NCBI GenBank assembly: GCA_028818695.1
Contig: JAPPNK010000015.1
Coordinates: 62,001 to 126,000, forward strand
Length of the DNA: 64,000 bases
Direction: 5' to 3'
Origin: Candidatus Poribacteria bacterium
GTDB lineage: Bacteria > Poribacteria > WGA-4E > GCA-2687025
Shown: piece after piece, positions 7,812 through 64,000 of the stretch
Position numbering within the stretch: position 1 is the stretch's first letter
Layout of the letters: each line of letters opens with the position of its first letter
Notes under the pieces: generated by a model
What the model saw: only the letters and a program-made list of their open reading frames with translations
Database searches by the model: none
What the model was told of the DNA's origin: nothing
Program-made: the position numbers and the translations under genes

Positions 7812-7826
7812 ACCGATTTTCCCCCC

Positions 7827-8415: not shown

Positions 8416-8427
8416 TGCAGAAGATGG

Positions 8428-8947: not shown

Positions 8948-9132
8948 ACGCATCCCAAGAGCGGCGGCGGCGAGCCGAAACGCTCCAGCATAGACCGAAA
9001 CGAAGCAAGGAGGTCTCTGTAGTGACCGATCAGAACGATTCTCTTCGGCGCCGAGCGCGCCCTCTTTTACCGCAAACGGCAAAGCATAAGGCATTCAGAA
9101 ACATGCATTTGAAACAACAGGATGGACACAAC

Positions 9133-12100: not shown

Positions 12101-15100
12101 GCAACGGCAACGAAGCCTACGACAGCGACGCCGACACGCCAGACGTTGATGAACCGTATTCGGTCACGATCGACAAGACGGCGCCGGTTCCGGCCATCTC
12201 GACGGTCCAGAATGCGGGAACTTTAACGGAGTTCGGCGACACGCAGGATCTTCAGTTCATCATATCCTTCACAAACGGGACTGGAGGCGCTGAAGAGGTG
12301 CCAGAGCTGACAGCGGCAAACATCCGATTCGGATATGTGCCTGTCACCCAAGTCGTGAACGACAACGCCACCCCTGACAACCCCGCCGATGACACCAATA
12401 TAACGTTTGACGACACGGCAACGGAAGTAGCCGGCGGGGCGTCCGTTGTCTCCCTCGTTGCCAGCCCGGCTGAAGATGATCACACCTACACGTTGACGAT
12501 CAATGCAGAGGACTTCGACCGAGATCCGCCCTCCGCTCCTATTGCCGACCCCGATGACACGCCGACGGGCGCAATGGATGTTAGAACGGATAACTATCGG
12601 AGAAATCTGCGAATCTACATTGATGCAGACGAGGTGATGGACCTCGCAGGCAACAACAACGCTGAATACGACAGCGACGCCGCAGAAGGCGTCCAAGGGC
12701 GCCAAGTCGTCATTGTTCCGGTTATCCCGTCCATCACGATTGAGACCCTCGCGAGCGATGGCGTGACCGGCGGGTTGACCAGAACCGCTTTCAACGACAA
12801 TCCGCTCAGCGACGGACCGGCGTTCCCTGTCAAGTTCACATTCTCCTCGTCTGTCGGCGTGTTCGACGCGGCCGACGTTACGCTCGGCGGAGACACCAGC
12901 GCGACCCTAACAGAGTTTAGCGGCGCTGACGAAACCTATACGGCGAAGGTCACGCCGCTCCAGCCCGTCGTTAACGAACAGACAGGCGATGTTACGACGC
13001 CAGGGTACACCGGCCCCTTGACGATCACCGTTGCCGCGAACATCAACAACCTCGGCAACTTTCCGATAACGCATACGGTCTATGTCGACCAAAACACGCC
13101 CGTTGCGAATGCCATTACGGGACCCTTCCCCCAGGACGATGAGGGAATGCGCGCCGACACGGCGTTGACTGGCGCGCCAACGATCGGCGGAGACCCGTTC
13201 TATGTGCAGGTCACGTTCAGCGAGCAGGTGGAAAATCTCGGTCCGTCAGGCTTCGATATCTATAATCTGACCGACCTCGGCGCTACGAAAATTCAGGTCG
13301 GGACAGCGTCCGAGATAATGGCAGAAGAGATGGCGGACGGCGTGACGACCCAAACGTGGACGGCAAAGATCACGCCGAACCCAGGCTTCAACGGCAATAT
13401 AGTGGTGGCGGTCAAGGAAGGCGCCGCGATGGACAGAGCGGGCAGAGCCTCCACCTTGGCAGACACCGCGCCTGTTCTTGGCGCTGCCGCCGGGAGCGAA
13501 ATCACGGTTGACCAGCGGGGACCGAAGCCGGTCATCTCCTTCCCCGAAGCGCGGACGGAAGAGCACAATGTGATTGTCGCGACAGACCTAGCAAGCGGCT
13601 TCGCTCTAAGGCTCCGGTTCCAAAACGGCGATCAGACCGACAACACCAACATGCCTATCTATGAGGCAGTGGGCGCAGGCACCGCTGACGATCCCAACTT
13701 CACGTTGGATGACGTCGTGGTCTCGCCGGCGGGGGCAGCGACGGTTACCGTCGCCACAGCCACCGATCCTGAATGGACGATAACGGTCATACCGAGACCG
13801 GACGATACGAATACAGACGATGTGAATGAGGCGTACGAGGGACCGATCACCATATCGATCCCCGCGATGCGCTTCGAGGACGGCGTCGGAAACATGAACG
13901 CCGCCTCCAACATGTTCATGGTGGTGATCGATAGGGGGGCTCCGCGCGCCACTTCCATCACCAGCGCGGACGCTATAGCGTTGGGGCGCCCGTTCGATTT
14001 GACGGTTATGTTCAACGAGGATGTGACCGGCTTTGAGACGGATCCCAACCTTACCATTGTCGGATATACAGGCGCGAGCTATGACGGCACCGGCGGTACG
14101 ACGATCACACCGACTGCAATCACGGTGGCTCCTGTCGGCGACAGCAAGCAGATGTACAAAGCCACGATCACACTTGGAACAACCGTGACCGAGGCTAAAG
14201 TGTTTGTGTTTGTGGCGGCGAGCGCTGTAACCGATCTCGCCGGCAACGCGAACCTTGTCTCTTGGGATGCCGAAGAGGAAGAGGCTGGCGATCCGATGGA
14301 TGTCTACTACGAGCAGACCATCAACAGAACCAGTCCGACCGTGGTAATCACCCGTGCCGAAAGCACTGAGACCGATCCTAATCCAGCGCCAGACGGCTCG
14401 CATAAATTCAATTTCGAGTTCAACAAGGTTGTCACGGGCTTCGATGCTGGCAATTCTCTCGATGTTTCGGTCACAAATGGAAGCTATGTGCCGGGCAGCT
14501 TCGAGGCGTCAACGACAAACACGAGGCTTTATTCGGCAAGCTACTTGCCGGATGGCAACGGCGACCTGATGCTGGTTGTCCTGGCGGAGGCTGCGATGGA
14601 CGCGGCTCAAAACCCATCGCTCGCAGCGATGTTTATGCTGGACTTGAGCCGCCCGACAGCGGAGATTGTTGTTGTCAGAGATGATGGCACTGGCACCTTC
14701 GTCGAAGACACGACTCCGCAGAACGAAGCGTTCATGGTGGAGGTTCGGTTCAACGAGCCGATAAATATCGCGACTACGGGCTCGCCTGTATCCTTTGATC
14801 TCGCAGTTCAGAATGGCACTGCGGCAGCTTTTGCTAGAGGTAACTGGCAGACTCCTGTGGCCATTCCGGGTGATACCGACGGCAATGAATCATCTGAAGT
14901 CTACAGAACAACAATCACGCCGAGCCCCAACTTCGATGGAATTCTGACAGTTGGCTTGGCGGCGAATTCGGTTCAAGACCTTAACGGCAACTGGAACGCT
15001 GGACCGGCGCAAAAGATGGTGATGATAGACCAGACCGCTCCTACGGTTATGATCATGCCGACAGCGATTGGCAGCGCTTTCGCCTCCAACGGGAGCAGCT

Positions 15101-18100
15101 TCACGGCGACCTTCACCTTCAGCGAGCCGGTGACAGGCTTTACCGAAGACGACCTCCCCGCTGGGAACGTGGTCGGCGGGACTCTGGTTGCGGGCAGTCT
15201 GAGGCGCATGCTCCTGAACGGAAGTACCGTCGTAACGAATCCGATGGAACCCGCTCAGATTCACACGGTCTTGATCACTCCGAACGCCAGCGTAGCGGAA
15301 ATCACCATTACCTGGCCGGCAGATGCCGTCATGGACTTGGCGGGCAACAACAACGCCGCCTACGACGGCGATCCTGAGACGGACACCCCTGATCCGCACA
15401 CAATAACGGTGGATACGGTGGCGCCGACGCCGGTCATCACAGGTCCTGCCAGTTACGCCGGCCCGATCGTGATCATGATCACGTTCGTAGACGACGCGAC
15501 TGCCACCCCCTTGGTCGAAGAGGAGGTTACAGGCTTTGATGCGGGCGATGTGGCGATAGTAGGCGGCGATAAAGGCAGCTTCATCGCGGTGAGCGAGTCG
15601 CAGTATCGGCTCAATATCACGCCGACACCCGGCGTGAATGAGATAACGGTTGATATTGCAGCGAACGCGGCTATGGACGGCGCTGGAAACCAAAGTCTCG
15701 TCGCAACGCAATACACTGCGGCTTACGACTCGGCTCTGCCGTATGTATCAAACATTGAGGCGCCTGATGTGACGAACGGCGATTTCACCGCGATGATCAA
15801 CTTCAGCGAAGCGGTGACAGGCTTCAGTGCGGCAGGTGTGGCGGTTACAGGCGGGACGGTGAAACCCGGCTCCCTTACCACCATAACAGCCTCCAGATAC
15901 AGCGTGGAGATTATGCCGAATCCGGCGGTGATGGACGATCCGTTGACGCTGGATATGGATGAATCGGCTCCGGCGTTTGAAGGAGATTTGACCGTCTCCG
16001 TGTTGGCGGACGCTGCAACTGCAGTCGCCGCCCCAGCGAGCCGGACTACGGTTGAGTCGAGTGTCTATATTGTCCGTATCGACTTGACGGCTCCGACGGC
16101 GACAGCGTTCACGCTGAACCCCGACACAAACGGCGTCGCGCAGCCGCTGCGCTTCAATCAGTTCAACTTCCAGGTTGTCATCACGTTTGACGAGGACATT
16201 GATCGGACGACCTGGGCTACGACCGATCTGACGGTCAGCAGCGGATCGACGGTTACCAGCGTGAGCAGCGCCGACGCTCGGACGCTGACCGCCATGATCA
16301 ACTCGCCGAATCAGCAGGCGACGGTCTCTCTCGGCGCGGGCATGGTGACCGACATTGGCGGCAACGGCAACGTCGCGCATGCGGGCGGTACTATTTCGCG
16401 CACGACGAAAGCTCCGACGGTGACAGCGTTCACGCTGAACGGCGGGCAGCCGCTGCGCTTCAATCAGTTCAACTTCCAGGTTGTCATCACGTTTGACGAG
16501 GACATAGATCTGACGACCTGGGCTGTGGGCGATCTGACGGTCAGCAGCGGATCGACGGTTACCAGCGTGGGCAACAACGGCGCTCGGACGCTGACCGCCA
16601 TGATCAGCTCGCCGCATCAGCTGACGACGGTCTCTCTCGGCGCGAATGTGGTGGACAACACGGACGGCGCCGGCAACGCCGCGCATGCGGGCGGCACTGT
16701 CGCGCGCGCGACGGGCGCTCCGACCGTGTCGCTGTTTGTGGCGGACGGCATCCTTACGCGCAACGCCTCTCCGTTCCAGGTTCGGATCGTGTTCAACCAG
16801 CCGGTGACCGGCTTTGTTCTAGACGATCTGAGCGTGGTGGGCGGAACGAAGGATCAGTTCCAGGCAGTGTCGGGTCAGATTTACACGGCTCGCATCACGC
16901 CGACAGCGGGTCAGTCGTCGGTTGTGATTTCGGTTAATGCGGGTGTCGCAATGAACAGCGGGAATATCGGCAACGCCGCCTCCGGCGCGTTGACCGTCAA
17001 CATCTCGATAAGCTCCAGGACGGTGAGCGTCACATCGCCGGCGCAGGGTCCTGTGACCGGTCCGTTCAATGTGAATATCTCGTTCAGCGTGGCCACGAGC
17101 GGCTTTGAGACGGGCGACATCACGGTGTTGAACGGGACGGTGACCTCGTTGGATCATGTGTCGCTGAGTCGGAACTGGGTTGCGTCGATCACACCGACCG
17201 GTCAGGAGGTGGCGGTGTATCTGGTTCAAAATGTTGTGAACGGCGGAAACGCTCCGTCGAATGTGTTCAGGATTCGGTCGGACGTCGGCTCGCCTGTTCC
17301 CTCAGGCTTGAGTGTGAGCCTCACGGGTCCGGCGGCTGTTAAGGCGGGCGCATCGACGATGAATATCCTGTTCACGCGGGACGACGTCGGCGTTCCTGTG
17401 ACCGGTTTAGCCTTGAGCGATCTGTCGGTGACGCCGAGTTCTATCGCGTTGACGAACTTGACGCCGCATGCGACGGACGCGGGCCGTTATATGGTGACAT
17501 TGACGCCCCCTAACGACTTTGAGGGCGACGTGACCGTTACTCTCGCTGCGAACGCGGCGATAGACGACCGCGGCAACAACAGCCCCGGAGGTTCGTTCCA
17601 GACGCGGGTGGACAGCACGCCTCCAACGGTTATGATTTCGGGTCCGACCGGCCCGTCGAACGGAGCCGTTGATTTGACGTTCACCTTCAGCGAGCCGGTG
17701 ACAGGCTTTGACGCCGCCGATTTGACGGTCAGCGGCGGAACAGCCGGCGCTATCACAGGCTCCGACGCAGTCTATATGGCGACCATAACGCCGGCGGCTG
17801 ATTACAACGGTGAGTTGACGGCGGATATCGCGGCGGAAGCTGCTATGGATGCCGCCGGCAATATGAGTACTGCCGCCGAGCAATACGCGGTGATGATTGA
17901 CCAGACGCCTCCGACAGTTGCCGTGACCGGTCCGGAAGGGCCGATCAAGGACGAAATGATCATGATCATGATCGCGTTCAGCGAAGCGGTGACTGGGTTT
18001 GAGTTGTCGGACATTGCTGTTGGGAACGGGTCTGCTTCCGATCTAGCAGCGGATGAGACGACGCCGGGCCGCTACACAGCGATGGTTCAAGCGGACAGCG

Positions 18101-19407
18101 GCTTTGAAGGCATGCTGACGGTCGACATTGCGGCGGGCGCGGCAGCCGACATGGCAACGAACGCAAGCATGGCGGCGGAACAGTACGCCGTTGAGGTTGT
18201 GCTGGATACGTCGTTCACGATTGCATTGAACCAAGGCTTGAACATGATCCATGTTCCTGTGAAGGTGGACGGTCTGGCGATGGTGAGCAATCTCTACGAC
18301 GCTCTCGGCGGTTCGTCGGATGTGCTGTATATTCTGTCTCTAGACGGCAGCAGAAACTTTGTAGCCTATGTCGGCATACCTGGTTCTTCGGGCGATACGG
18401 CGTTGTCGGATCAGACGGCGGTGGTTGTGAACATGCGGACGGCGAAGTCGGTGACCTTCACGGGCGGCTTGCTGGACGATACGGTTTCGCTGACGCAGGG
18501 CGTCAATCTGATCGGGGTTCCGCGCGCCGGAGTGGTGGCAATGGCGAGCGAGGTGGCTCCGGACGCGACGGCCGTTCTGGTTTTGACAACCAATTCGATT
18601 GGCGAGGCTCAGTTCACACTTGTCATTCCGAACACGCCTTCGGATGTGCCGGCGGCCGGCGGTCAGGGCTACATTGTGGTCGCTGCCGCGGACGATTCGA
18701 TAACCTACACGGGCGAGGCGTGGGAGGATCCTGAAGATACCGCGATGTCGGCAGCTTCGACAGAAGCGGTCAAGTATGACCCGACCTCAACGCCTGTTCT
18801 TCTGATTGAAGGCTCGTTTGCCCGCGAGGACACCCAGGAGCCTGTCAACGGGCTTCAGGTGACGATTAAGAATCTGCGGACGGGCGAGTCGGAAACCGAC
18901 ACGGCAGGCTTGACGGCCGGCAGCGGTCGGTTTGTGAAGCCGATGGTCGCTCTGCGCAGCGATCGTTATGAAGAGGGCGACATGCTTGAGGTGTCGGTCG
19001 TTGATCCGAGCGGAACGTTCGGCGGATTGACGCCTGTTCGAACGGTTGTCGGCAAGGATGAGATCGCCGTTGGGCGGATCAACATTGGGCGGCAGCTGCT
19101 GAGCGCGGTTCCGTATCGTTCAGATCTGCTGCCAAACTATCCGAACCCGTTCAACCCCGAAACATGGATCCCGTTCGACTTGGCTGAGGCGAGTCGGACA
19201 ACGGTGACCATTTACAACGCAGCCGGTCAAACGGTTCGCGTGTTGGAACTGGGTCAATTGCCTGCTGGTCAGTACCGCAGCCGTTCCAAGGCCGCCTACT
19301 GGGATGGTCGGAACGCTCTCGGCGAGCGGGTTTCCAGCGGTCTTTACTTCTACCGCATTGAAGCGGGGTCGTTCAGCGCATTGCGCCGAATGGTCATCTT
19401 GAAATAA
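9133..19407 (+). CDS. Giant secreted protein of tandem Ig-like domains with a PNPFNPE-type C-terminal domain
   Basis: About 3,424 aa. The ATG at 9133 gives a clear signal peptide (MRTINRFFAAARILGACAVA...QAMA|QT); the open frame extends up to 8938 without a better signal. Roughly 24 repeats of about 100 residues follow, most opening with D-x-T-A-P-T-V and carrying TITFSEPVTGF, a Y-T-A-T-I-T-P strand and an AGNxNxA turn, as in bacterial Ig-like domains of the Big_12 type. After them come two related domains (LNQGLNMIHVPV and LTQGVNLIGVPR), a domain with GLQVTIKN, and a C-terminal module with YPNPFNPETWIPFDLAEA, FlgD-Ig-like and ending SALRRMVILK. That ending resembles surface-sorting domains of type IX-like systems. 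I infer an exported adhesin or matrix protein. Confidence 0.93.
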   Translation: MRTINRFFAAARILGACAVAALLTIAAAPQAMAQTDTDFSAITTTPAAGTTVPGLFEVTYQFTIPDGDDDDSDPDVVQVSGFAPSDFTVTDTNDVSVGTVQSIRRSPSTNTYTVRILANSDHNDEATETGALTVTLLANSVEGPTLDLNPTPGDDTRYVNTTATTLSLTVDQAKPTVEFQVEALDGTDDADNLVNGKFQVQFTFSEAVTGFALSDISAPNTTKSDLIEVTPGTVYTADFMPNNGFSGEVKVMIPSGSVNDVVGNLNEADEIDVMVDQAKPTVMITAPAQWGNENFMATITFSEAVQNFEAADITLAPTPTGETGQSAAISAGVLNSDGSQTYIATISGVTADTTSLDISIAADAVDDLAGIGAAGAGTTGNGNTASNTATVAIDAARPTASITAFSPTEDDPTGINLSPDNVDSFTATITFSNGLTDNDVVGFQQGGRDIYVTYGTSTTPNYNDVTLAGALPGTGFTATITPTAGYEGEMTIVIPANAAQSEVDTTKGNPRFERTVRINQGAPTVAVTAEKPRTNGPFGITITFSEPVTGFMMDEITIADTATTDAEVSNFVAVPGGTTYTATVTPSDDANDDTPGSETAITISVIAGVAMDIVGNPNAASPAVGAEENPNPVVTFDDTAPTVMTISAPGSASEAFEALFTFSENIAEGSFTADDITVGNGSASNVEGRDAQYTATITPTAGFSGTLTINVAADRLTDIAGNNNMAYDRVPDVEIDPATQGSQPFEVTIDQTAPTVEIEDPTLDDPPGPRRKENDAFTITITFGEAVTGLTTDGIAVSSSPTGKADDATTMDVDESMLADATVTSVSGGGTAWTAVITPRVPADGATDAADTPLVDESMPFQGNLTVQVKADAAADSSGGGNTASNTLTVNINTVRPTLTISTEGTHFKEAFTATFTFNEPVTGFDATNISLAGDTGATATEFAESDDAGVTPGTTYTATITPSETFPGDNTTGALTITVLENLAQDAHGNGNEAYDSDADTPDVDEPYSVTIDKTAPVPAISTVQNAGTLTEFGDTQDLQFIISFTNGTGGAEEVPELTAANIRFGYVPVTQVVNDNATPDNPADDTNITFDDTATEVAGGASVVSLVASPAEDDHTYTLTINAEDFDRDPPSAPIADPDDTPTGAMDVRTDNYRRNLRIYIDADEVMDLAGNNNAEYDSDAAEGVQGRQVVIVPVIPSITIETLASDGVTGGLTRTAFNDNPLSDGPAFPVKFTFSSSVGVFDAADVTLGGDTSATLTEFSGADETYTAKVTPLQPVVNEQTGDVTTPGYTGPLTITVAANINNLGNFPITHTVYVDQNTPVANAITGPFPQDDEGMRADTALTGAPTIGGDPFYVQVTFSEQVENLGPSGFDIYNLTDLGATKIQVGTASEIMAEEMADGVTTQTWTAKITPNPGFNGNIVVAVKEGAAMDRAGRASTLADTAPVLGAAAGSEITVDQRGPKPVISFPEARTEEHNVIVATDLASGFALRLRFQNGDQTDNTNMPIYEAVGAGTADDPNFTLDDVVVSPAGAATVTVATATDPEWTITVIPRPDDTNTDDVNEAYEGPITISIPAMRFEDGVGNMNAASNMFMVVIDRGAPRATSITSADAIALGRPFDLTVMFNEDVTGFETDPNLTIVGYTGASYDGTGGTTITPTAITVAPVGDSKQMYKATITLGTTVTEAKVFVFVAASAVTDLAGNANLVSWDAEEEEAGDPMDVYYEQTINRTSPTVVITRAESTETDPNPAPDGSHKFNFEFNKVVTGFDAGNSLDVSVTNGSYVPGSFEASTTNTRLYSASYLPDGNGDLMLVVLAEAAMDAAQNPSLAAMFMLDLSRPTAEIVVVRDDGTGTFVEDTTPQNEAFMVEVRFNEPINIATTGSPVSFDLAVQNGTAAAFARGNWQTPVAIPGDTDGNESSEVYRTTITPSPNFDGILTVGLAANSVQDLNGNWNAGPAQKMVMIDQTAPTVMIMPTAIGSAFASNGSSFTATFTFSEPVTGFTEDDLPAGNVVGGTLVAGSLRRMLLNGSTVVTNPMEPAQIHTVLITPNASVAEITITWPADAVMDLAGNNNAAYDGDPETDTPDPHTITVDTVAPTPVITGPASYAGPIVIMITFVDDATATPLVEEEVTGFDAGDVAIVGGDKGSFIAVSESQYRLNITPTPGVNEITVDIAANAAMDGAGNQSLVATQYTAAYDSALPYVSNIEAPDVTNGDFTAMINFSEAVTGFSAAGVAVTGGTVKPGSLTTITASRYSVEIMPNPAVMDDPLTLDMDESAPAFEGDLTVSVLADAATAVAAPASRTTVESSVYIVRIDLTAPTATAFTLNPDTNGVAQPLRFNQFNFQVVITFDEDIDRTTWATTDLTVSSGSTVTSVSSADARTLTAMINSPNQQATVSLGAGMVTDIGGNGNVAHAGGTISRTTKAPTVTAFTLNGGQPLRFNQFNFQVVITFDEDIDLTTWAVGDLTVSSGSTVTSVGNNGARTLTAMISSPHQLTTVSLGANVVDNTDGAGNAAHAGGTVARATGAPTVSLFVADGILTRNASPFQVRIVFNQPVTGFVLDDLSVVGGTKDQFQAVSGQIYTARITPTAGQSSVVISVNAGVAMNSGNIGNAASGALTVNISISSRTVSVTSPAQGPVTGPFNVNISFSVATSGFETGDITVLNGTVTSLDHVSLSRNWVASITPTGQEVAVYLVQNVVNGGNAPSNVFRIRSDVGSPVPSGLSVSLTGPAAVKAGASTMNILFTRDDVGVPVTGLALSDLSVTPSSIALTNLTPHATDAGRYMVTLTPPNDFEGDVTVTLAANAAIDDRGNNSPGGSFQTRVDSTPPTVMISGPTGPSNGAVDLTFTFSEPVTGFDAADLTVSGGTAGAITGSDAVYMATITPAADYNGELTADIAAEAAMDAAGNMSTAAEQYAVMIDQTPPTVAVTGPEGPIKDEMIMIMIAFSEAVTGFELSDIAVGNGSASDLAADETTPGRYTAMVQADSGFEGMLTVDIAAGAAADMATNASMAAEQYAVEVVLDTSFTIALNQGLNMIHVPVKVDGLAMVSNLYDALGGSSDVLYILSLDGSRNFVAYVGIPGSSGDTALSDQTAVVVNMRTAKSVTFTGGLLDDTVSLTQGVNLIGVPRAGVVAMASEVAPDATAVLVLTTNSIGEAQFTLVIPNTPSDVPAAGGQGYIVVAAADDSITYTGEAWEDPEDTAMSAASTEAVKYDPTSTPVLLIEGSFAREDTQEPVNGLQVTIKNLRTGESETDTAGLTAGSGRFVKPMVALRSDRYEEGDMLEVSVVDPSGTFGGLTPVRTVVGKDEIAVGRINIGRQLLSAVPYRSDLLPNYPNPFNPETWIPFDLAEASRTTVTIYNAAGQTVRVLELGQLPAGQYRSRSKAAYWDGRNALGERVSSGLYFYRIEAGSFSALRRMVILK
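16090..16716 (+). repeat. Recent tandem duplication of one Ig-like repeat
   Basis: Two adjacent units (16090-16410 and 16411-16716) inside the giant gene. They share long identical stretches such as CTGCGCTTCAATCAGTTCAA and GTCAGCAGCGGATCGACGGT, with matching positions 306 bp apart. The second unit lacks five codons near its start. The other repeats of the gene are far more diverged, so this copy event is recent. Confidence 0.85.
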
Positions 19408-29658: not shown

Positions 29659-29823
29659 AGCCTCATGCGTAAAGTTGGGACATTTGAGCGATTGATCGCT
29701 CTATTTATGGGGAAAAGGCTCCGCCCACCAAAGCGTCATTCCCGCGAAAGCGGGAATCTATAGGCGCCGCAGACGCCGCTTGCGTTCGCATGTCGATATG
29801 TCCCAACTAAAGACGTAAGGTCA
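29659..29823. repeat. MITE-like element, copy A
   Basis: About 165 bp. Ends: CCTCATGCGTAAAGTTGGGA on the left and TCCCAACTAAAGACGTAAGG on the right, which are imperfect inverted repeats. The middle holds the hairpin CATTCCCGCGAAAGCGGGAA. The reverse complement of 36703-36867 aligns along the whole length, including the shared inner words CTCTATTTATGG and GGCGCCGCAGA. Confidence 0.8.
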
Positions 29824-29992
29824 GCTTGTTCATGAGCCGGTACGCTCAAACGGAGTTATGGGCGGCGATGGCGTTTGATCGGAAGGTATGTTTTAAGATT
29901 CCCGCTTGTGCGGGAATGACGGCGCGGCGGCTTTCCGCTGATCATCGCGGTTCTTTCGTCATAGCGTCCTTACTTTAGGCATGAGGTCAGTG
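29824..29992. repeat. Diverged MITE-like copy D
   Basis: Directly after copy A. It keeps the hairpin GATTCCCGCTTGTGCGGGAA (about 29898) and a right end CTTTAGGCATGAGGTCAG matching the copy at 36703-36867, but the left end is not recognisable. The 416-bp gap between the RraA-like gene and the ROK gene is otherwise filled by copies A and D. Confidence 0.6.
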
Positions 29993-36702: not shown

Positions 36703-36867
36703 CTGACCTTAATCTTTAGTCGGGACATATCGGCGGGGAATGCGGACGGTTTCTGCGGCGCCTCTAGATTCCCGCTTGCGCGGGAATGACGGTTTGGTTG
36801 GCGACGCCTCTTTCCATAAATAGAGAGATCATTCGTTCAATTGTCCCAACATTAGGCATGAGGTCAG
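36703..36867. repeat. MITE-like element, copy B
   Basis: About 165 bp in reverse orientation relative to copy A. Left end CTGACCTTAATCTTTAGTCG, right end CCAACATTAGGCATGAGGTC, hairpin GATTCCCGCTTGCGCGGGAA in the middle. It occupies most of the gap between the secreted beta-sandwich gene and the methyltransferase gene. Confidence 0.8.
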
Positions 36868-37538: not shown

Positions 37539-37835
37539 TGTTGTCCGCGCGCCTCCAAAAAAACATAGCATGCGGGCGCTCAGAGTATGCCGCGATCCGA
37601 TTTCGCGATATAATTGTTAGCTATTCATGCGGCTATCGTCTTCAGTTTGGAACCGAAACCCAAAATGCAAGCTGTGCAATAGCTTCAAAAGTCCAAATTG
37701 AGCGGGCGCTGCGCAACAGGAGGCGTCCAGTCGCGCGCGGCGAAACGGCTTTACATTACTGAACGAGGGCTGCGGTATAAACTTAAAAAATACAAGATCG
37801 GTCCCGATGGCAATTCAACCGACGAGACGTCCTAG

Positions 37836-37871
37836 TCGACCATACGGTCGAAATTTCGACTATATCGTCGA
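37836..37871. promoter_or_regulatory. Tandem palindromic operators, module 1
   Basis: Two 16-bp inverted repeats, TCGACCATACGGTCGA (37836-37851) and TCGACTATATCGTCGA (37856-37871), 20 bp apart. They match the three sites at 57590-57647 as TCGAC-N6-GTCGA. The spacing of two helical turns puts them on one DNA face. They end two bases before a leader shared with module 2. Their distance from a possible TTGGGG-17-TAGGTT promoter (37889-37917) would fit activator binding near -60 and -80. The gap 37539-37835 holds nothing I recognise. Confidence 0.75.
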
Positions 37872-37873
37872 GG

Positions 37874-38020
37874 ATTGGTTGGGCGGTTTTGGGGAGAACC
37901 CGCATGGTTGCTAGGTTTTCAAAGTTGGCGCCGTATTTGCTTTAAGGGAGGCGTGTCGCAATGGTGCGGCGGAACAAAATGAAACGGAGAAACGGATGCG
38001 ACGAACGCTGAACGCCCTGA
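37874..38020 (+). repeat. Shared 147-bp leader, copy 1
   Basis: From ATTGGTTGGGCGGTTTTGGG to ACGCTGAACGCCCTG. It aligns without gaps to 57649-57795 with about seven substitutions, and covers the putative promoter, the leader ORF and the first eight codons of the downstream gene. Downstream of the leader the two genes show no similarity. Confidence 0.9.
37961..38011 (+). CDS. Conserved 16-codon leader ORF, module 1
   Basis: Encodes MVRRNKMKRRNGCDER. GGGAGG lies ten bases upstream of its ATG, a good ribosome-binding site. It overlaps the start of the main gene (37996) in another frame, with its stop TGA at 38009-38011. The partner at 57736-57786 encodes MMRRNKMKRRNECDER with the same stop position. 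The role could be translational coupling or attenuation. Confidence 0.55.
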   Translation: MVRRNKMKRRNGCDER

Positions 38021-38679
38021 CGACGAAACTTGCTGGACGAGTCAAACCCTTCCTGAACATCCCGACGGCACTCATGACGGCGCTCGCTGTCGGAGGCTTT
38101 GGTCTCTCGCTTTGGATGGTTGAAGATTCGATGCTGTCCATGGATCGCGATGTCCTGACCGCTGTTGCCGACACAGACTCCGACAACGACAACGCCACAT
38201 TTGAAGGGTTTCTCGTGAAGGCGCACGTGCATACTGATGCAAACGGCTCCGTCAAGCCCGGTCTAATTTATGGAGGATCATCTTCCGTTGATGCTGGGGC
38301 GAACTGTGGCGTCTGGCTCAAGGGAATTCCAATTCTCAGCAGGCATGACTTCGCCCTCAGCGGTTACACTTTTTGCCAAACCTTTGATGTGTTTTCCCGG
38401 CACGGTGTAGGCGGAGAATTTTTTGGAGAGCCGCTGAAAGGTTCCTTGTTGTGTTGGCGTGAGTGGTGGGTTTTCGCTGATGGAACCGTCCAGGTGGTGT
38501 GGAAATGGACAGGCTACCGAGGGCTTGTTATAAAGCGCGCTTCACAGGAAGTCGGGGTAGTGGACAATGGCCACTCTGCCAATTCATGGTCGAAGGTTGA
38601 GATTACATACTCATCGCCTGCGCCGGACAACGGTTCCGTCAAGTGCGACAGCAGTCATGGTAATGGGTTCTTGCAATGA
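37996..38679 (+). CDS. Module 1 secreted/anchored protein, unknown family
   Basis: 227 aa. The ATG at 37996 has ACGGAGA upstream. The first eight residues MRRTLNAL are shared with the gene at 57771. A hydrophobic stretch (IPTALMTALAVGGFGLSLWM) then serves as signal or anchor. The mature part is beta-rich and includes four cysteines (in ANCGVW, FCQTF, LLCWRE, VKCDSS). I recognise no family. The final residues VKCDSSHGNGFLQ run into, and may come from, the transposase remnant that starts at 38675, so the true C-terminus may have been replaced. An anchored family protein follows at 38879. Confidence 0.7.
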   Translation: MRRTLNALTTKLAGRVKPFLNIPTALMTALAVGGFGLSLWMVEDSMLSMDRDVLTAVADTDSDNDNATFEGFLVKAHVHTDANGSVKPGLIYGGSSSVDAGANCGVWLKGIPILSRHDFALSGYTFCQTFDVFSRHGVGGEFFGEPLKGSLLCWREWWVFADGTVQVVWKWTGYRGLVIKRASQEVGVVDNGHSANSWSKVEITYSSPAPDNGSVKCDSSHGNGFLQ

Positions 38680-38867
38680 TTAACGGCAAAGGCCGCGGAA
38701 AGCAAACATACCTTTGCCGAGATTGCAATACCCGACACACTCCGTCGGGAAAGCGCTGCTAGTATTCGAAAGAGTTCCATGAAAAAGCGGTGAAAATGTA
38801 TGAGAATGTGACCAGCGGTTGCGCAGTCGCCGCATTCCTGGGTGGGGTAAATCCCAAGTCATTGATT
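38675..38867 (+). pseudogene. IS1-like transposase N-terminal fragment
   Basis: In the frame from 38675 the translation reads NGKGRGKQTYLCRDCNTRHT, then PSGKRC, a stop codon, YSKEFHEKAVKMYENVTSGC and AVAAFLGGVNPKSLI. This is the zinc ribbon plus helix-turn-helix order of InsA-type (IS1 family) transposases. It has at least one internal stop and no catalytic domain. It sits between the two genes of module 1, where modules 2 and 3 have only 14-20 bases, so it marks an insertion followed by decay. Confidence 0.7.
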
Positions 38868-38878
38868 GGAGGAACAAC

Positions 38879-39724
38879 ATGGGTAGAAAACTTTGGATTG
38901 TATGCGGAGCTGTTTGCGTTCTCGCATTTGCTGTCTGGATGATCATGAAGAGCTCAGTGTCGGATGAGAAAAGCCCTTCGTCTGAAACAACGCCGCCTTC
39001 AATCTCTCCGCTGACGCATGACAGCCAATCGCCCCGCATTTCAACGGAACCCGGGCATGAGATCATAGCCGCAGAAGATTCGATTCAGGCGTCCTCCCCA
39101 GCGCCCGCCTCTGCGCCCAGCGAGCCTGACAGCCTTGTCGAGTTGAATACCGTGGACGAGACGCTTGACGAGTACGCGCGTCTGGTTGGAGAGCGATACG
39201 ATCTGTTGCTTCAGACGATGGATGAACATGAAGCAAGCATATACGCGCACGATCAAATTTCCCTAGAAATTATAAAGGGAAAACACCCGCGCTTGTTCGA
39301 TGCAATCCGGCGGTTTCAAGGGCAGTTTCCACCCGAATCTAGAAGCCCAGGGGCTTTGCTTGCGAGAGCGGGGCGCATACCCAATGAAAACTTGTGGACG
39401 CTTCCAAATGGAGAAGTGGTAGAGGTCCAACCGAACACAGAGGTGGTTGTCACATTCTATAAGCGGGGAAAGATCACTGCCGAAGGACTGCGCAAATTGG
39501 AAGCGTCTGAAAAAGAAGAGCGGGAAATTCTAGATCGTCTTGAAGCGGCGGATGTTTCCGAAGAAGAACGAGCGTCGCTGCAGACAAAGTTGGAAGAGAC
39601 GCGCCAGTTTCAAAAAACGATCCTAGAGAGGGAGCCTTCGCCCTTTGAAATAACGCGGATCCATGGAGATCGCGAGGATCCTGATTTTAAAACGATCAGG
39701 ATCAATGTGGGAATCGTCGACTAA
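38879..39724 (+). CDS. Module 1 membrane-anchored protein, LVGxxYD family
   Basis: 281 aa. TTGGAGGAAC precedes the ATG. One N-terminal membrane helix (LWIVCGAVCVLAFAVWMIMK) is followed by a Ser/Pro-rich linker to about residue 80 and a helical domain. Conserved with the proteins at 58691 and 62213: YARLVGERYDLLLQ, LLARAGRIPNENLW, LPNGEVVEVQ and the C-terminal DPDFKTIRINVGIVD. Between these, residues about 195-250 form a charged coiled coil missing from the 62213 copy. It is probably a periplasm- or surface-facing protein working with the upstream secreted partner. No known family recognised. Confidence 0.75.
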   Translation: MGRKLWIVCGAVCVLAFAVWMIMKSSVSDEKSPSSETTPPSISPLTHDSQSPRISTEPGHEIIAAEDSIQASSPAPASAPSEPDSLVELNTVDETLDEYARLVGERYDLLLQTMDEHEASIYAHDQISLEIIKGKHPRLFDAIRRFQGQFPPESRSPGALLARAGRIPNENLWTLPNGEVVEVQPNTEVVVTFYKRGKITAEGLRKLEASEKEEREILDRLEAADVSEEERASLQTKLEETRQFQKTILEREPSPFEITRIHGDREDPDFKTIRINVGIVD

Positions 39725-39807: not shown

Positions 39808-40608
39808 TTAACTCGCCCGTAAGCGGGAATGTCTCCATGCCTTCAACCGCTCATTCCCCAACTCCACATACTCCGCATTGATCTCAACCGCGATAAAGTC
39901 TCTGCCGAGCCGTTGACACACGAGCGGGCATGTCCCGACGCCCGCAAAAGGGTCGTACACCAGATCGCCTTCGTCAGAGCTTGCCAACACAATCCGCTCC
40001 ATCAGCTTTTCAGGTTTCTGGATCGTATTGAGCGCGTCGCGCCGCGCGAGCTCCTTGGATTTGTAGGTGAGCTGCTTGATGTCGCCCCAGACGTCGCCAG
40101 GGTTTTTGCCCTTTTCGTTGAATTTTGTTCCGCCGAATTTTCCGCTTTGGACGGACGGAACCTGTTCGCAGCGAAGGCGATGCTCCAGCTCCACCAGCTG
40201 CGGGACTCGAATGGCGTCCAGGTTGTACCGCCGCGGCCTGTCTCCCTTGATGAAGTAGCAAATGATGTCGTAATTGTTCGTATAACTGATCCTGCCTTGA
40301 GACAGCCTGCTCGGCTGATACCAGACGATGCGCGATTTCAGATTGAGATAGGGGCGGTAATCGATGAAGTCGATGCAGTTCGGCTTCCCGAACAGATACA
40401 ACGCGCCGCCCTTTTTCAGTTTCGGAGCGAACCGCCTGATGAGGTCAAGGTTGTACTTCTGGATGTTTGGGATTTGGTCCCATGGATGGCGCGTGACGCC
40501 GTATGGACCGTCGCACACAATGAGATCGACCGATTCGTCTGGAAGCTGCGCCGTCAGCTTCAACGAATCGCCGTGAACGATGCGGTTTCTCTCAAGCGCG
40601 GGCTTCAT
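39808..40608 (-). CDS. Orphan DNA (adenine-N6 or cytosine-N4) methyltransferase, beta-type order
   Basis: 266 aa. The catalytic motif IV comes first (DLIVCDGPYGVT, residues 29-38) and the SAM-binding motif I near the C-terminus (LVYDPFAGVGTCPLVCQRLG, then FIAVEINAEY), the order of beta-group enzymes. Motif IV reads D-G-P-Y rather than the usual D-P-P-Y; the Asp, Pro and Tyr are kept, so activity is plausible. KPEKLMERIV is the conserved motif X-side helix. No restriction gene is near, so it is an orphan methyltransferase that may act in regulation or phage protection. It lies 27 bases after mqnE on the same strand. Confidence 0.88.
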   Translation of the reverse strand: MKPALERNRIVHGDSLKLTAQLPDESVDLIVCDGPYGVTRHPWDQIPNIQKYNLDLIRRFAPKLKKGGALYLFGKPNCIDFIDYRPYLNLKSRIVWYQPSRLSQGRISYTNNYDIICYFIKGDRPRRYNLDAIRVPQLVELEHRLRCEQVPSVQSGKFGGTKFNEKGKNPGDVWGDIKQLTYKSKELARRDALNTIQKPEKLMERIVLASSDEGDLVYDPFAGVGTCPLVCQRLGRDFIAVEINAEYVELGNERLKAWRHSRLRAS

Positions 40609-57589: not shown

Positions 57590-57647
57590 TCGACATATAT
57601 GGCGAATAGTTCGACATATGTGTCGATTATCTCGACCTATATGTCGA
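57590..57647. promoter_or_regulatory. Triple palindromic operators, module 2
   Basis: Three 16-bp sites: TCGACATATATGGCGA (57590-57605, one mismatch), TCGACATATGTGTCGA (57611-57626) and TCGACCTATATGTCGA (57632-57647), each 21 bp apart. Consensus with module 1: TCGAC-N-TAT-N2-GTCGA. They end one base before the shared leader. Bases 57429-57589 before the array contain nothing I recognise. Confidence 0.8.
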
Positions 57648-57648
57648 T

Positions 57649-57795
57649 ATTGGTTGGGCGGTTTTGGGGAGAACCCGCACGGTTACTAGGTTTTCAAAGT
57701 TGGCGCCGTATTTGCTTTAAGGGAGGCGCGCCGCAATGATGCGGCGGAACAAAATGAAACGGAGAAACGAATGCGACGAACGCTGAACGCCCTGC
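57649..57795 (+). repeat. Shared 147-bp leader, copy 2
   Basis: Gap-free, near-identical match to 37874-38020 (about 95%). It includes the conserved TTGGGG-17-TAGGTT pair (a weak promoter candidate, -10 box at 57687-57692), the GGGAGG ribosome site, the leader ORF and the first eight codons of the main gene. Confidence 0.9.
57736..57786 (+). CDS. Conserved 16-codon leader ORF, module 2
   Basis: Encodes MMRRNKMKRRNECDER with GGGAGG nine bases upstream; it overlaps the main gene start at 57771 and stops at 57784-57786. It differs from the module 1 peptide at two positions only. Confidence 0.55.
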   Translation: MMRRNKMKRRNECDER

Positions 57796-58676
57796 TGTCA
57801 AGAAAAGTGAACGCCATGACGACCATCCGAACGGAACGAACAACGAAAACCGCCCAAACGAAAGGGAACGACATGACAACGCAAAACGATTCTCGCGCCA
57901 CTGCTTCCAACGCAACGAACCGCGCCCGCCAAGTCCGTACAGCGAAAGGGAACGAAATGATCAACCGACGCGATTCTTACACAGCGACCGCATTGACCAG
58001 CCGCAACGGAAAAGGCGTCGGCATGATGAAGCGCATCCTTTTCGCAGGCATGGCGACGGCGAGCCTGTTCATCTTTTCGCACGGCGCAGGCGGACATGAC
58101 AAATACGAATTCAAGCGGAATCCAGAGGAGGACGGAGAGTACAATTCATACCGAGTATCTTTTTCAGGATTGTATATCGAAGGTTCACACCATTCGCTTA
58201 CGAATGTACAAGGGAGCGCTGCTTATAGCACTTTATCTCTGTATGCAAGCGCTAGCTCTAAGATGAGATGGAATATGCGTACTTATCCTGATGAGTATAT
58301 TGCGCAATGCATAGTGGGCGAAGGAAGCTTTGAATATAATTTATATGCGAACGCAGAAGTGTGGGCGGCATCTACGGGAAGAGATAGAGGCAAGACAGGG
58401 GATGAAACCAAGTGTAATGGTACTATGTGGACATCTCTTACATATAAAATAAACATAGATGGCGATATGATCCCACATTTTGACTGGGGTGGGGGCGGGT
58501 CTATATGGGACACCGCATCTGCGTCGGGAACAGCAGGAGGAAGTTACTTCCATCCTCTAGCGCACTACGCGTACGCGGCTTCGAGAGCGATTCTTAAAAG
58601 AACAAGTGGAGAGTATGTAATGGATGACGGTATGTTATGGTCGGTACACAAACACCCATCGAGGCTGAAGTTCTAA
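57771..58676 (+). CDS. Module 2 secreted protein with repeated N-terminal start-like segments
   Basis: 301 aa from the ATG at 57771, whose first residues MRRTLNAL equal those of the module 1 gene. Before the signal peptide (MKRILFAGMATASLFIFSHG, from about residue 86) lie three basic, Thr/Asn-rich segments of about 23-28 residues, each ending in a Met whose codon is preceded by AAAGGGAAC or a variant. True translation could therefore begin at 57771, 57873, 57957 or 58023. The mature part is rich in Tyr, Ser and Gly (SLYASASSKMRWNMRTYPDE) with two cysteines, and its DNA is visibly lower in GC than its surroundings. Family unknown. Confidence 0.7.
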   Translation: MRRTLNALLSRKVNAMTTIRTERTTKTAQTKGNDMTTQNDSRATASNATNRARQVRTAKGNEMINRRDSYTATALTSRNGKGVGMMKRILFAGMATASLFIFSHGAGGHDKYEFKRNPEEDGEYNSYRVSFSGLYIEGSHHSLTNVQGSAAYSTLSLYASASSKMRWNMRTYPDEYIAQCIVGEGSFEYNLYANAEVWAASTGRDRGKTGDETKCNGTMWTSLTYKINIDGDMIPHFDWGGGGSIWDTASASGTAGGSYFHPLAHYAYAASRAILKRTSGEYVMDDGMLWSVHKHPSRLKF

Positions 58677-58690: not shown

Positions 58691-59623
58691 ATGATGCGAA
58701 GAAAAGTTGGGATCGCGTCGGTTGTATTAGGATGCATACTTGCCGTCGTCATTGGATGGATGCTGACATCAAACGAAAAGGGCGCGCTTAGACCGTCTCA
58801 TGATACAGCATCGCCGACGACGGAACGGTCGATGTCTCCTGTCGTTCAGATTTCGCCAACGATTGAGAGTCTTGAAAAAGAAGACGAGGCGGCTGAAGTA
58901 CAGCCAGCCGCTCGTCAGCCGTCTGTAGTTGCCGCTGCTGGGAAATACAATTTCACCAAATGGCAAGATGCGGTGGACGAATTTGCAAAGTTGGTCGGCA
59001 TTGAATACGACCGACTTTGGGAAGAAGGGCATAGATCGCCCGCTTCCCTTGCAGTCATGAATGTTTCTTTTCGTATCTTCAGGGACAACGAATATCCGGA
59101 GTTGCTAGAAGCGATGAAGGACTTTGTTCCGTTCGATTCCAGCATGACAGAGGAGCAGCGTCGGACCTTTCCAAACTGGAACCGTCGCATACCAGAAGAG
59201 ATTTGGCGCAATCCTCGTTGGATAGCAGTTTGGGCAGGTAAAATGCCTGAAGGCAGCCAATTCACAAAGCTTCATTTGCCGAACGGTACGACCATGCATC
59301 TCAAGGAATTTCAGAGGGCTAAGGTTTCTTGGGAAGAACGCTATATTCCAGCGCAAACTCGAACCGGGCAGATCGAAATGGGTTTTTTGCGCCAATATGC
59401 AAAAAAGCTAGAAACCAATCTGGAAACAGCCCAAGATGAGCAGTTTGACAGTACGTTCTTGGAATTAGAGCGGGTCAAAGCGCAAATTGACGATCTGTCT
59501 AAGGAAAAGATCGTTCCGCGTGAAATGGAGGCTGGCGCCCTTGAGGAATTCAGCGGCCATCCTGAATTTGAAATCATAGAGGTTGATTTGGGAATCATTG
59601 ACCGAACTCAAGAAGAGGATTAA
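58691..59623 (+). CDS. Module 2 membrane-anchored protein, LVGxxYD family
   Basis: 310 aa. AAGGGGG lies directly before the ATG, 14 bases after the secreted partner. One N-terminal membrane helix (VGIASVVLGCILAVVIGWML) leads to a Ser/Thr/Glu linker to about residue 90. The conserved domain then follows: DEFAKLVGIEYDRLWEE, WAGKMPEGSQFTKLHLPNGT, and the C-terminal HPEFEIIEVDLGIIDRT. A predicted coiled coil (QYAKKLETNLETAQDEQFDS) lies near residues 225-285, as in the module 1 homologue. I recognise no database family. Probably periplasmic or surface-exposed, acting with the upstream secreted protein. Confidence 0.75.
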   Translation: MMRRKVGIASVVLGCILAVVIGWMLTSNEKGALRPSHDTASPTTERSMSPVVQISPTIESLEKEDEAAEVQPAARQPSVVAAAGKYNFTKWQDAVDEFAKLVGIEYDRLWEEGHRSPASLAVMNVSFRIFRDNEYPELLEAMKDFVPFDSSMTEEQRRTFPNWNRRIPEEIWRNPRWIAVWAGKMPEGSQFTKLHLPNGTTMHLKEFQRAKVSWEERYIPAQTRTGQIEMGFLRQYAKKLETNLETAQDEQFDSTFLELERVKAQIDDLSKEKIVPREMEAGALEEFSGHPEFEIIEVDLGIIDRTQEED

Positions 59624-59842
59624 CGGAGCTGTCGGGCAGTCAGGGCTTCATTCATGATCGCGGCGATTCGGACGGCGCAAACCGTTCTCATACCTCCTGA
59701 CAGCAGCGCCGCGCCGATCATGGATCCTTTGAGAGCCGCATACCCGTTCTTCTCCGACGCGGCGGGTCTGGGCTGTCCAGCTCCGCCGCGTTTTTGTTCG
59801 AAGCGCAAGCAGCGAGGCGCCTCCAGCTGTCAGAAAATTGTC

Positions 59843-59911: not shown

Positions 59912-60556
59912 ATGAGTACTCGACGCATCATCCTGTTGTCTGCCGCGCTTTTGTCCGCGGTAGCGGCTGGCGCCGTTTATGTTGCCGCGCCAGATCTTTG
60001 GTCCAATCATGAAGACGCCTTTCCCCTGAGCGGCGAAGCGCTTGAATCGGAGCAATCGCCCATCCTCCAAACGACCGATCCGACCTTGACCGCCCCCGTT
60101 TCCCAATCAGAAAAGCTGCCCCCGTCCTCCGCTTCTGGCGCCGCTTCATTTGAAGAGTCTGCGTCTATGGAGGCTTCCGCCGCTTCTGTTGAGATTGCCG
60201 TTCCGTTGGAGGATACGGCGGGGACGGAGTCTTCTGCGTCCGCCTTTGCCGCGCCTATTGAGTCGAGCGGTTCCGAACGCGCAAGAGAAACGAGGAGAGC
60301 GGAACGGAAGGCGCGCGTTGCGGCTGATCAAAAAGAGGCAGAAAGGATCGACTCCCTGCTTCGAAAAGAGAGCCGCGCCGTTTCAAGAAAAATAGAAAAA
60401 GAAAAGAGGCGCGCCGCCACATCAACCGACCGGGCGGTCGAAAAAGCGGCTCGAAAAGTCGAATCTGCCGCCAAAAAAGAGGTCATCAAGCAGAACCCCG
60501 ACCTTCGCCAAGCCGCAAAAACCGAACGTCAAATTAAAAAAGCCGGTAAGCAATGA
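59912..60556 (+). CDS. Secreted Ala/Ser/Glu-rich coiled-coil protein
   Basis: 214 aa. AAGGAG precedes the ATG. A signal peptide or anchor (RRIILLSAALLSAVAAGAVY) is followed by about 90 residues of Ser/Ala/Glu/Pro low-complexity sequence. A highly basic helical end (ERARETRRAERKARVAADQK, then IEKEKRRAATSTDRAVEKAA) follows. It resembles a periplasmic linker or cell-wall-binding protein, but I recognise no family. It overlaps the next start by four bases (ATGA), so it shares an operon with the sugar isomerase-like gene. Low complexity makes any homology call unsafe. Confidence 0.65.
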   Translation: MSTRRIILLSAALLSAVAAGAVYVAAPDLWSNHEDAFPLSGEALESEQSPILQTTDPTLTAPVSQSEKLPPSSASGAASFEESASMEASAASVEIAVPLEDTAGTESSASAFAAPIESSGSERARETRRAERKARVAADQKEAERIDSLLRKESRAVSRKIEKEKRRAATSTDRAVEKAARKVESAAKKEVIKQNPDLRQAAKTERQIKKAGKQ

Positions 60557-62212: not shown

Positions 62213-62806
62213 TTATTCTATCTGTCCCAGGTCCTGCGTCAACGCTTGAATGTCGGGATGAGCGCGCGACGTTGACGACTGTATCATCCACCTGTATGCG
62301 AATCCGTTTGGCCGCTTATAGACTGCGTTGATGCGTCTGTTTTTCTCAAGGCGCAGCGTTTCTCCGTTCGGCAGCTGTATCTGAACGCCGACTTGATCTG
62401 GAGAGACGCGCCCGGCGCGCGCCAACAGGCTGTCGGGCCGCTGTGCGTCTTTTGGAAAGTCAGCCACAAAACGCTCTATCCCAGCCCTTAAATATGCAAA
62501 GGCGGCGTCTTTGGAGATGAGATCAATGGCGGCTTCATGCGCCTGAATGACCGCCGCGTCATGCGTTTCGCTTTGAATGCGGCGGTCGTACCCTTCCCCT
62601 ACAAGACGCGCCCACTCGTTCAATACCGCTTCCGCTGTTGAGACGTCGGCGGACGGGTTCGGTTTGGGACCTTTGCGCGCGCTTGCCTGACGGGGCGATT
62701 GCTCTTTTTCCGTTAAAGGCGCGGAAGAGCGGTTGTCGAAATAAATCCAAAATGCGGCAGCCCCAGCCAACACAGCCAGAGCTGCCCATAGAATCCAACG
62801 GCGCAT
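62213..62806 (-). CDS. Module 3 membrane-anchored protein, LVGxxYD family
   Basis: 197 aa, the shortest of the three homologues. GGAGGG precedes the ATG. One membrane helix (WILWAALAVLAGAAAFWIYF) and a short linker lead to the conserved core: NEWARLVGEGYDRRIQ, DSLLARAGRVSPDQVG, QLPNGETLRLEKNRR and the C-terminal HPDIQALTQDLGQIE. The charged coiled coil between core and C-terminus, present in the 38879 and 58691 proteins, is absent. It follows the secreted gene of the same module by 20 bases. Confidence 0.75.
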   Translation of the reverse strand: MRRWILWAALAVLAGAAAFWIYFDNRSSAPLTEKEQSPRQASARKGPKPNPSADVSTAEAVLNEWARLVGEGYDRRIQSETHDAAVIQAHEAAIDLISKDAAFAYLRAGIERFVADFPKDAQRPDSLLARAGRVSPDQVGVQIQLPNGETLRLEKNRRINAVYKRPNGFAYRWMIQSSTSRAHPDIQALTQDLGQIE

Positions 62807-62826: not shown

Positions 62827-63378
62827 TCAATGTTGGTGTTTCGCCTCGTCATGGACGGAGCCGCCGTCTTGGACGACGAGACCCAGCTCCACGCGCGCTT
62901 CATGGTCGTTGATCCGCTCCGTTCCGTCGCCGATGCCCGCAAGACCGAACGAAAACCAGAAGGCGGGCGTCCATTCTAGAACCAGTTCGCCTTGTTTCGT
63001 TTTGCCGAATTCGCGCCAGTTGCCGGCGGAAACGAAGCCCTTGATCGTCTCCGGCTGCTCTTTGGGACCGATGCGCCCGAACGTCTTGCCCTCCAGCTGC
63101 GCGGAAATGTACGCCGCTTTCGGATCGCCGTCGGCCGGCATCCATACGTCCCTATCCAGCAGCAAGACCGTCTCGGCGATGAACGACGCCCTGAAGGTTT
63201 TTTCATCCGGCGTGATGGGACCCACCGCGGCGACCGTCTCCGCCTTCATGAAGTACCCCTCGCCTTTATACTGATCGCGCGGGCCGAAGTCGGCGTCGTC
63301 ATGGGCGATTCCCCCAGACGACGCCAACAAGACGGCTGCGGCTGTAAAGCCGACCCAGAACCGAGCTGCGCTTTTCAT
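62827..63378 (-). CDS. Module 3 secreted protein, unknown family
   Basis: 183 aa with a signal peptide (FWVGFTAAAVLLASSGGIAH). The mature part is predicted beta-rich (GEGYFMKAETVAAVGPITPD, RASFIAETVLLLDRDVW, GELVLEWTPAFWFSFGLAGI, ARVELGLVVQDGG). I recognise no family, and no convincing similarity to the secreted partners at 37996 or 57771 is seen beyond a related layout and genomic position. It overlaps the upstream gene by four bases and lies 20 bases before the anchored protein gene. It lacks the shared leader of modules 1 and 2. Confidence 0.75.
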   Translation of the reverse strand: MKSAARFWVGFTAAAVLLASSGGIAHDDADFGPRDQYKGEGYFMKAETVAAVGPITPDEKTFRASFIAETVLLLDRDVWMPADGDPKAAYISAQLEGKTFGRIGPKEQPETIKGFVSAGNWREFGKTKQGELVLEWTPAFWFSFGLAGIGDGTERINDHEARVELGLVVQDGGSVHDEAKHQH

Positions 63379-64000
63379 CTTCGCCGCTCCACAGGCGGCT
63401 CTGAACGCGGGCGCATTTCAAGCCACAGCTGGTATGCGTCCTGCTGCCGTTTGATCAGCTCGCGCGTTTCAGGGTCTAGCTGCGGGTTGCTTTCAATAAA
63501 GGCGTCCATGATCATCTCGTAAGCGGCCGCCTGCTCCTCGCGCGTCTCAAACGGACGCCGCGGCGGAGGAGGCGGAGCCTCATGGACGCCAGGATCAGAC
63601 GGTCCGACCGGCTCCTGCGACGGAGCGGCAGGCGCATCGGCAGAGGAAGCGGAGCCAGACGCATCTCTGCCCGGCGCGGCGCCTGAAGGCGGAGGAGTTG
63701 AAGGGCGCGTCGGCCAGGACCGTTCTCCCTTTTCTATTGCTCTCAACAGCGCCGCTGAATAGTCTAAAAAAACCATCCATTTCACCGTGTCCCACTCCTC
63801 TTCTTCGGCGACCGCCGGCGTCCAATTTTCCAAACGGCGCATGGCTCCTTTCCATCCGCGGTCAGTCAGCTTAGCGACTCGGTCGTCGTAGTTGTAAAAC
63901 TGGACCTCCTCCGGCGGAAGAACGTTGTCATCATCATCCACATAGAAGATCTTCACGCCTTCGGGGGCGACCCCGTAATGCGTGATGAGATACTTCTGAT
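63375..64000 (-). CDS. Acidic/Pro-rich protein, 5' end beyond the window
   Basis: At least 208 codons. The frame is open from the window edge: upstream of an in-frame GTG at 63956 the translation continues as YLITHYGVAPEGVKIFYVDD without a stop, so the true start probably lies outside. DDDDNVLPPEEVQFYNYDD opens the visible part; a Pro/Ala/Ser-rich linker (about 70 residues) and a helical end (AYEMIMDAFIESNPQLDPET) follow. No family recognised. Its stop overlaps the module 3 secreted gene by four bases (ATGA), so this gene belongs to that operon. Confidence 0.65.
   Translation of the reverse strand, partial: QKYLITHYGVAPEGVKIFYVDDDDNVLPPEEVQFYNYDDRVAKLTDRGWKGAMRRLENWTPAVAEEEEWDTVKWMVFLDYSAALLRAIEKGERSWPTRPSTPPPSGAAPGRDASGSASSADAPAAPSQEPVGPSDPGVHEAPPPPPRRPFETREEQAAAYEMIMDAFIESNPQLDPETRELIKRQQDAYQLWLEMRPRSEPPVERRR

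Follow-up and report, generated by a model that had tools for sequence, protein, structure and literature searches.

What kind of system is built from a gene for a secreted protein followed by a gene for a membrane-anchored one, and repeated several times over a short distance, is the question raised by a 64,000-nucleotide stretch of a Candidatus Poribacteria genome (GenBank assembly GCA_028818695.1, contig JAPPNK010000015.1, positions 62,001 to 126,000 of the forward strand), hereafter the window. Poribacteria are uncultured bacteria, abundant in sponges and marine habitats, that encode many lineage-specific secreted proteins. A preliminary description of the window proposed three copies of a two-gene module in which a constant anchored protein (A) accompanies a variable secreted protein (S), a pattern known from secretion/immunity, surface display and sensory systems. 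The genome is a 91%-complete metagenome-assembled genome (MAG) of 35 contigs with several repeats at contig ends, and the copy numbers given below are therefore lower bounds.

The three loci in the window

The proposed order, a secreted gene and then an anchored gene, was found at all three positions. Secreted genes were called as open frames with signal peptides, and their codon support is weak. In module 1 the secreted frame (37996-38679, +) precedes an anchored gene whose best start is the ATG at 38879 and which ends at 39724 (+), encoding a 281-aa protein with a transmembrane (TM) helix at residues 4-25, a QSPR linker (residues 50-53) and the LVGxxYD domain. A gene for an N6/N4 DNA methyltransferase (39808-40608, -) lies directly after this module. 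The secreted gene of module 2 (57771-58676, +) likely begins at its second ATG, at 58023 (MMKRILFAG...), which gives a better signal peptide, and is followed by a gene for a 310-aa anchored protein (58691-59623, +) assigned by family alignment and profile. Directly past it lies a gene (59912-60556, +) for a protein with the same kind of tether and an EQSPI linker, otherwise carrying only a charged helical tail. Module 3 lies on the minus strand, with the secreted gene at 62827-63378 and a 197-aa anchored protein, with TM helix, EQSPR linker and LVGxxYD domain, encoded at 62213-62806. This pair is real, but it is not a locus of its own: it makes up the last two genes of an operon of four that leaves the window, in the order secreted, anchored (class B), secreted, anchored (class A). 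The C-terminal part of the class B protein (487 aa in full) is encoded at 63375-64000 (-), its gene continues beyond the window, and another secreted gene precedes it there.

Elsewhere in the window, a single repetitive secreted protein of 3461 aa with many repeats of the F-x-F-S/N-E-x-VTGF type is encoded at 9022-19407, and REP-like dispersed palindromic repeats (GATTCCCGC...GCGGGAATGACG) occur at 7300-8640, 29734-29923 and 36728-36798.

One family of anchored proteins

The three anchored proteins can be aligned from end to end and belong to one family, as the preliminary description had supposed from their motifs. The LVGxxYD segment reads YARLVGERYD, FAKLVGIEYD and WARLVGEGYD in modules 1, 2 and 3, respectively; LLARAG is present in modules 1 and 3, WAGKMP in module 2, and LPNGE/LPNGT was also recovered. 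The GI[VI]D-type C-terminal end was found as GIVD and GIID, but module 3 ends in GQIE. A profile built from the three sequences retrieved further paralogues from the same genome at E-values of 3e-47 to 1e-14, far above chance, and reached about 20 places in the 3.57 Mb; 18 of these genes could be aligned into a single family, called class A below. In one of the 18 (C35:10 kb) the domain is fused to the C-terminus of an ECF sigma factor.

Neither the 83 other genomes searched from the phylum nor the 144 relatives examined contain class A. Scans with short-peptide patterns, which can miss distant relatives, gave no match in 84,980 GTDB species or in the IMG/VR viral collection, so that the latter offers no sign of a viral origin. 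On these sequence comparisons, class A is restricted to its lineage. No member gave a supported Pfam match for the domain, and a PDB sequence search returned no relative. For the module proteins as a whole, searches of Pfam, NCBIfam, PHROGs, padloc and PDB sequences yielded no supported family, and matches to DUF6509, CdiI, BamI, Zot-like and LtrA entries, all weak and far below the cut-offs, were discarded.

Structure prediction was confined to window sequences, and each model was built from three sequences and is confident only in part. The features common to the two anchored-protein models are a single helix at the N-terminus, a disordered linker, a helical part and a small stretch of strands. 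With the module 1 model, Foldseek and VIA-align gave no supported fold match for the class A domain, the matches being limited to coiled-coil hairpins (residues 195-258); this does not count as evidence for a new fold.

How regular is the pairing?

Leaving aside the sigma fusion and one gene at a contig edge, 16 class A loci could be tested for a secreted gene directly upstream. It is present at five (window modules 1-3, C2:31 kb and C29:61 kb) and absent at the other 11. Under the refuting condition set in the preliminary description, secreted genes missing upstream at most homologous loci, an obligate two-gene module is refuted, and A has to be able to act by itself or in trans as well. Upstream of one of the class A genes (C32:136 kb), remnants of a secreted gene were sought and not found. 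In the second anchored class, B, all three genes (C21, C13 and C32:127 kb) have a secreted gene upstream, although the grouping is uneven, with C21 matching C32:127 kb at E 1e-28 and C13 matching at only E 0.1-0.2. A constant anchored protein beside a variable secreted one is thus found at 5/16 class A and 3/3 class B loci and fails as a general rule; what survives, at the level of gene order and homology, is a looser reading in which the S-A pair recurs at at least eight loci, three of them with the second anchored-domain class. The gap between the two genes is 14-36 nt at seven loci and 199 nt at module 1, and gene order is reversed in the C35 module.

The secreted partners are mutually unlike, as had been described: wherever one precedes an anchored gene it is mostly a different one. 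The S proteins of C21 and C32:127 kb are related (E ~4e-4), and both have class B partners, an example in which S families appear to track A classes. Most S genes have a host codon-usage score near zero and several are AT-rich (0.44-0.53 vs 0.596); the module 3 gene, with normal codon usage and a GC content of 0.61, is the exception.

Several related loci were noted in passing. At C26:56 kb (L059:12098-13300) a secreted Ig-like protein follows a header that has decayed, the activator there being frameshifted; the protein has a 40%-identical paralogue at C3:23 kb, with a class A gene 5 kb away. Upstream of the secreted gene at C2:33 kb (L065) there are tandem TTGAC...TA(C/T)GAT repeats resembling repeated sigma70-type promoters.

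A sigma54-type header and its activator

Modules 1 and 2 share a 5' header of 146 nt, absent from the preliminary description, that is 96% identical between 37874-38019 (+) and 57649-57794 (+). It comprises a leader and a sigma54 -24/-12 promoter, TTGGCGCCGTATTTGCT, at 37925-37941 (+) and 57700-57716; this canonical pattern has just these two matches in the window, against a chance expectation of 0.16. It is preceded by candidate upstream activator sites, namely two 16-bp palindromes TCGAC-N6-GTCGA at 37836-37871 in module 1, proposed from pairing and position, and three palindromes about 21 bp apart at 57590-57647 in module 2, the first imperfect, proposed from spacing and pattern. The window holds four TCGAC-N6-GTCGA palindromes where chance would give 0.11, and paired ones occur at four places in the 3.57 Mb, each before these promoters, with none for the reversed control pattern.

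Six header copies were found in the genome, and at up to six loci the layout is activator gene or its remnant, 16-bp palindromes about 20-21 bp apart, and TTGGCGCCGTATTTGCT. Immediately before four of the copies lies an intact or damaged gene for a sigma54 activator lacking a receiver domain. The activator (Pfam PF00158, E 5.6e-63; HTH_8, E 2.8e-15) is intact at C13:55938-56969 alone. In module 1 only the last ~42 codons are left (37707-37832, +), comprising the Fis-type HTH with ITERGLRYKL and 83% identical to residues 303-344 of the C13 protein, the remainder of the gene being absent; the C26 copy is frameshifted and two others are cut by contig ends. The genome encodes rpoN, that is, sigma54 itself (PF04552, E 4.4e-59). 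The C35 copy combines a CCAAC half-site with the recognition helix ITERKLQTRI, and TCGAC goes with ITERGLRYKL, a co-variation that would follow if every activator recognised sites of its own. From position and this co-variation, the activator may act on the promoter by binding to the palindromes. The header is absent at the C32:127 kb and C2:31 pairs; sigma54 control is therefore not general.

Cargo exchange between constant flanks

Comparison of the header loci points to exchange of what lies behind the header. Module 1 and the C13 module (55.7 kb) have in common the header and the first 46 residues of the secreted protein, which include the signal peptide and are 91% identical; after these the S sequences are unrelated and the anchored proteins belong to different classes. 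Module 2 and the C35 module have in common the header and a 3' flank (59756-59832, +; 88% identical over 78 nt to C35:223996-224072) that bears an intrinsic-terminator-like hairpin and T-run (-27.8 kcal/mol, z -3.1), and the cargo between them differs. Apart from the C35 module end, this 3' repeat recurs only as a fragment within a gene that lies 2.9 kb beyond the C13 module. By alignment, then, the header is kept and the S/A cargo swapped, as if the sigma54 header served as an expression slot that can be used again. The sequences give no sign of a mobile element of the transposon or integron type: no recombinase gene was noticed adjoining the modules, and the 3' repeat is confined to the places named.

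Outside the six header loci, the signal peptide and A of C2:31 and C29 are recent duplicates (dS 0.20-0.26), whereas dS is 0.82 for mature S; these are Nei-Gojobori estimates from single pairs and indicative only. With flanks of recent origin around a much older mature S, the flanks were probably kept while S between them was replaced.

A tether shared with membrane-bound ECF sigma factors

Nearly all anchored proteins begin with a short basic segment and one TM helix, followed ~20-30 residues later by LTxExQ[ST]P[RVPI]. A model of this tether alone matched 43 places in the genome at E<=0.01, including by construction the sequences from which it was built, whereas ten other genomes yielded only weak matches, E 1e-4 at best and chiefly in the TM part. 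No fewer than 11 copies are part of ECF sigma proteins, where they join the sigma part to differing C-terminal domains: the class A domain at C35:10 kb, class C at C3:131 kb and further domains on others. Both alignment and the genome census match the single TM helix and LTxExQSPR linker of the window anchored proteins to those of the sigma fusions. Sigma-70 regions 2 and 4 were not detected by Pfam in the window anchored proteins, being confined among their paralogues to C35:10 kb. Some of the fusions are arrayed next to sigma-less tethers that belong to their own class, and at C21:250-256 kb sigma-less copies stand beside sigma fusions with near-identical tethers. The simplest reading of these relationships is that the anchored proteins are sensor halves of membrane-tethered sigma factors made free-standing, or that the change went the other way.

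The layout of sigma part, TM helix and variable C-terminus also occurs in other Poribacteria of the family, where the eight such proteins examined lack the QSP motif. The nearest named relatives with a tethered sigma-factor layout are Candidatus Poribacteria MAGs. Two further arrays were observed: at C19:28.5-36 kb (L161) one sigma-less copy lies among four membrane-tethered ECF sigma factors whose C-terminal domains are related, and at C13:248-252.4 kb (L178) six sigma-less tethers carry the domain of the C21 sigma fusions.

Possible functions of the pairs

The recurring pairs and the sigma-factor tether suggest a lineage-private recognition or signalling system. Of the three roles envisaged in the preliminary description, the link between tether and ECF factors favours a sensory or recognition role, without deciding the matter. 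The explanation tentatively preferred here, with somewhat less than even confidence, is that S is a rapidly changing exported protein and A its tethered recognition partner, that the sigma-fused versions signal, and that modules 1 and 2 are sigma54-switched. Each module would produce a Sec-exported, fast-changing S and a partner A held by its single N-terminal helix, with the LVGxxYD domain probably in the periplasm. There A may bind its own S, thereby receiving, holding or neutralising it, a function for which Pfam, NCBIfam, PDB sequence, Foldseek and VIA-align searches gave no backing fold or family match. The sigma-fused versions would turn recognition into transcription, probably through release of the sigma part. 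In modules 1 and 2 a receiver-less sigma54 activator, acting through the TCGAC palindromes on the -24/-12 promoter, would switch on expression, and the S/A cargo would be exchanged behind the retained header. The anatomy as a whole, with an exported S, a tethered A, a sensor-type domain, a dedicated switch and swapped cargo, suits a secreted protein that diversifies and has its recognition partner in the membrane. Effector-immunity and pure signalling are close rivals.

In the first of these, which is considered unlikely, S would be a secreted antibacterial protein, A its tethered periplasmic immunity protein, and the tethers with neither S nor sigma part orphan immunity genes. The order of S first and A second with short gaps, the joint swapping of both behind a fixed header, their fast diversification (dN/dS of ~0.75 for mature S and ~0.9 for the A domain) and the orphan tethers in arrays would all be expected, and at C1:59.5 kb a class E tether comes after a secreted frame and one of M15 type (D-Ala-D-Ala peptidase-like) with a possible wall-cutting activity. 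Pfam, however, recognises no toxin domain in any of the S proteins proper, the M15 frame and the S reading frame are distinct, padloc returned a single weak and unrelated match for the module proteins, and the presence of the same domains on ECF sigma factors is unusual for immunity proteins. The C1 locus (L181:5521-6595), with its secreted frame, M15 domain in another frame and tether, is possibly one frameshifted gene.

The second rival, a signalling accessory without killing, ranks just behind and is likewise improbable. S would be a periplasmic or extracellular sensor or ligand, and A a co-receptor or decoy acting on tethered ECF factors through the TM helix and linker. Such a role would account for a tether and domains held in common with at least 11 sigma fusions, and proteolytic activation has a precedent in the TM-fused ECF factor IutY and is expected for ECF48/52/53 (PMC8999054); but the extreme divergence of S and the swapping of cargo are atypical for the ligand of a fixed receptor, and no ECF gene adjoins the S-A loci of the window.

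Quite doubtful is a lineage-private self/non-self recognition, with swappable S proteins, cognate tethered receptors and ECF-fused receptor domains that report foreign variants. Least probable is a surface or envelope structure, with S displayed or assembled outside, A serving as anchor or export helper, and variation serving to escape phage, predators or host: by eye, the S proteins at C35 and C26 resemble beta repeats of the Ig type, sigma54-controlled exported proteins are known from PEP-CTERM systems (PMC1569441) and an STT3-type oligosaccharyltransferase gene comes after the C13 module, but the S proteins scanned with Pfam and NCBIfam have no sorting domain, A has no homology to export machinery and S is missing at most class A genes.

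With the recognition partnership as the preferred reading, the wider interest lies in an expanded tether family (~43 genes) in one genome, undetected in other Poribacteria, that physically joins variable periplasmic domains to sigma factors or secreted partners. If A recognises S, the system would offer a testable model for how such bacteria distinguish variants of an exported protein, and a route from the sensor halves of sigma factors to free-standing proteins.

Comparison with known systems

In polymorphic effector-immunity loci a fixed 5' part is followed by a swapped secreted product and a swapped downstream partner, and the loci described here have the same arrangement. They differ in that no toxin domain is recognised, bar the M15 frame at one locus, and in that the partner domain is found on sigma factors too.

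ECF sigma factors fused to a TM helix are known, including IutY/ECF243 of Pseudomonas putida and ECF48, ECF52 and ECF53 of Actinobacteria (PMC8999054). At least 11 proteins of the present genome likewise combine an N-terminal sigma2-sigma4 part, a TM helix and a periplasmic C-terminal part in one chain. The window anchored proteins, in contrast, are without the sigma part, and it is the tether that is common to the fusions, the class A domain occurring on one of them.

In the PrsK/PrsR regulation of PEP-CTERM proteins, a conserved upstream element and a sigma54 promoter precede many exported proteins (PMC1569441), much as a repeated candidate activator site and a -24/-12 promoter do here. The PEP-CTERM signal itself was not found in the S proteins scanned; the activator here is receiver-less and encoded at the module itself, and the header is copied together with the signal peptide while the cargo behind them varies.
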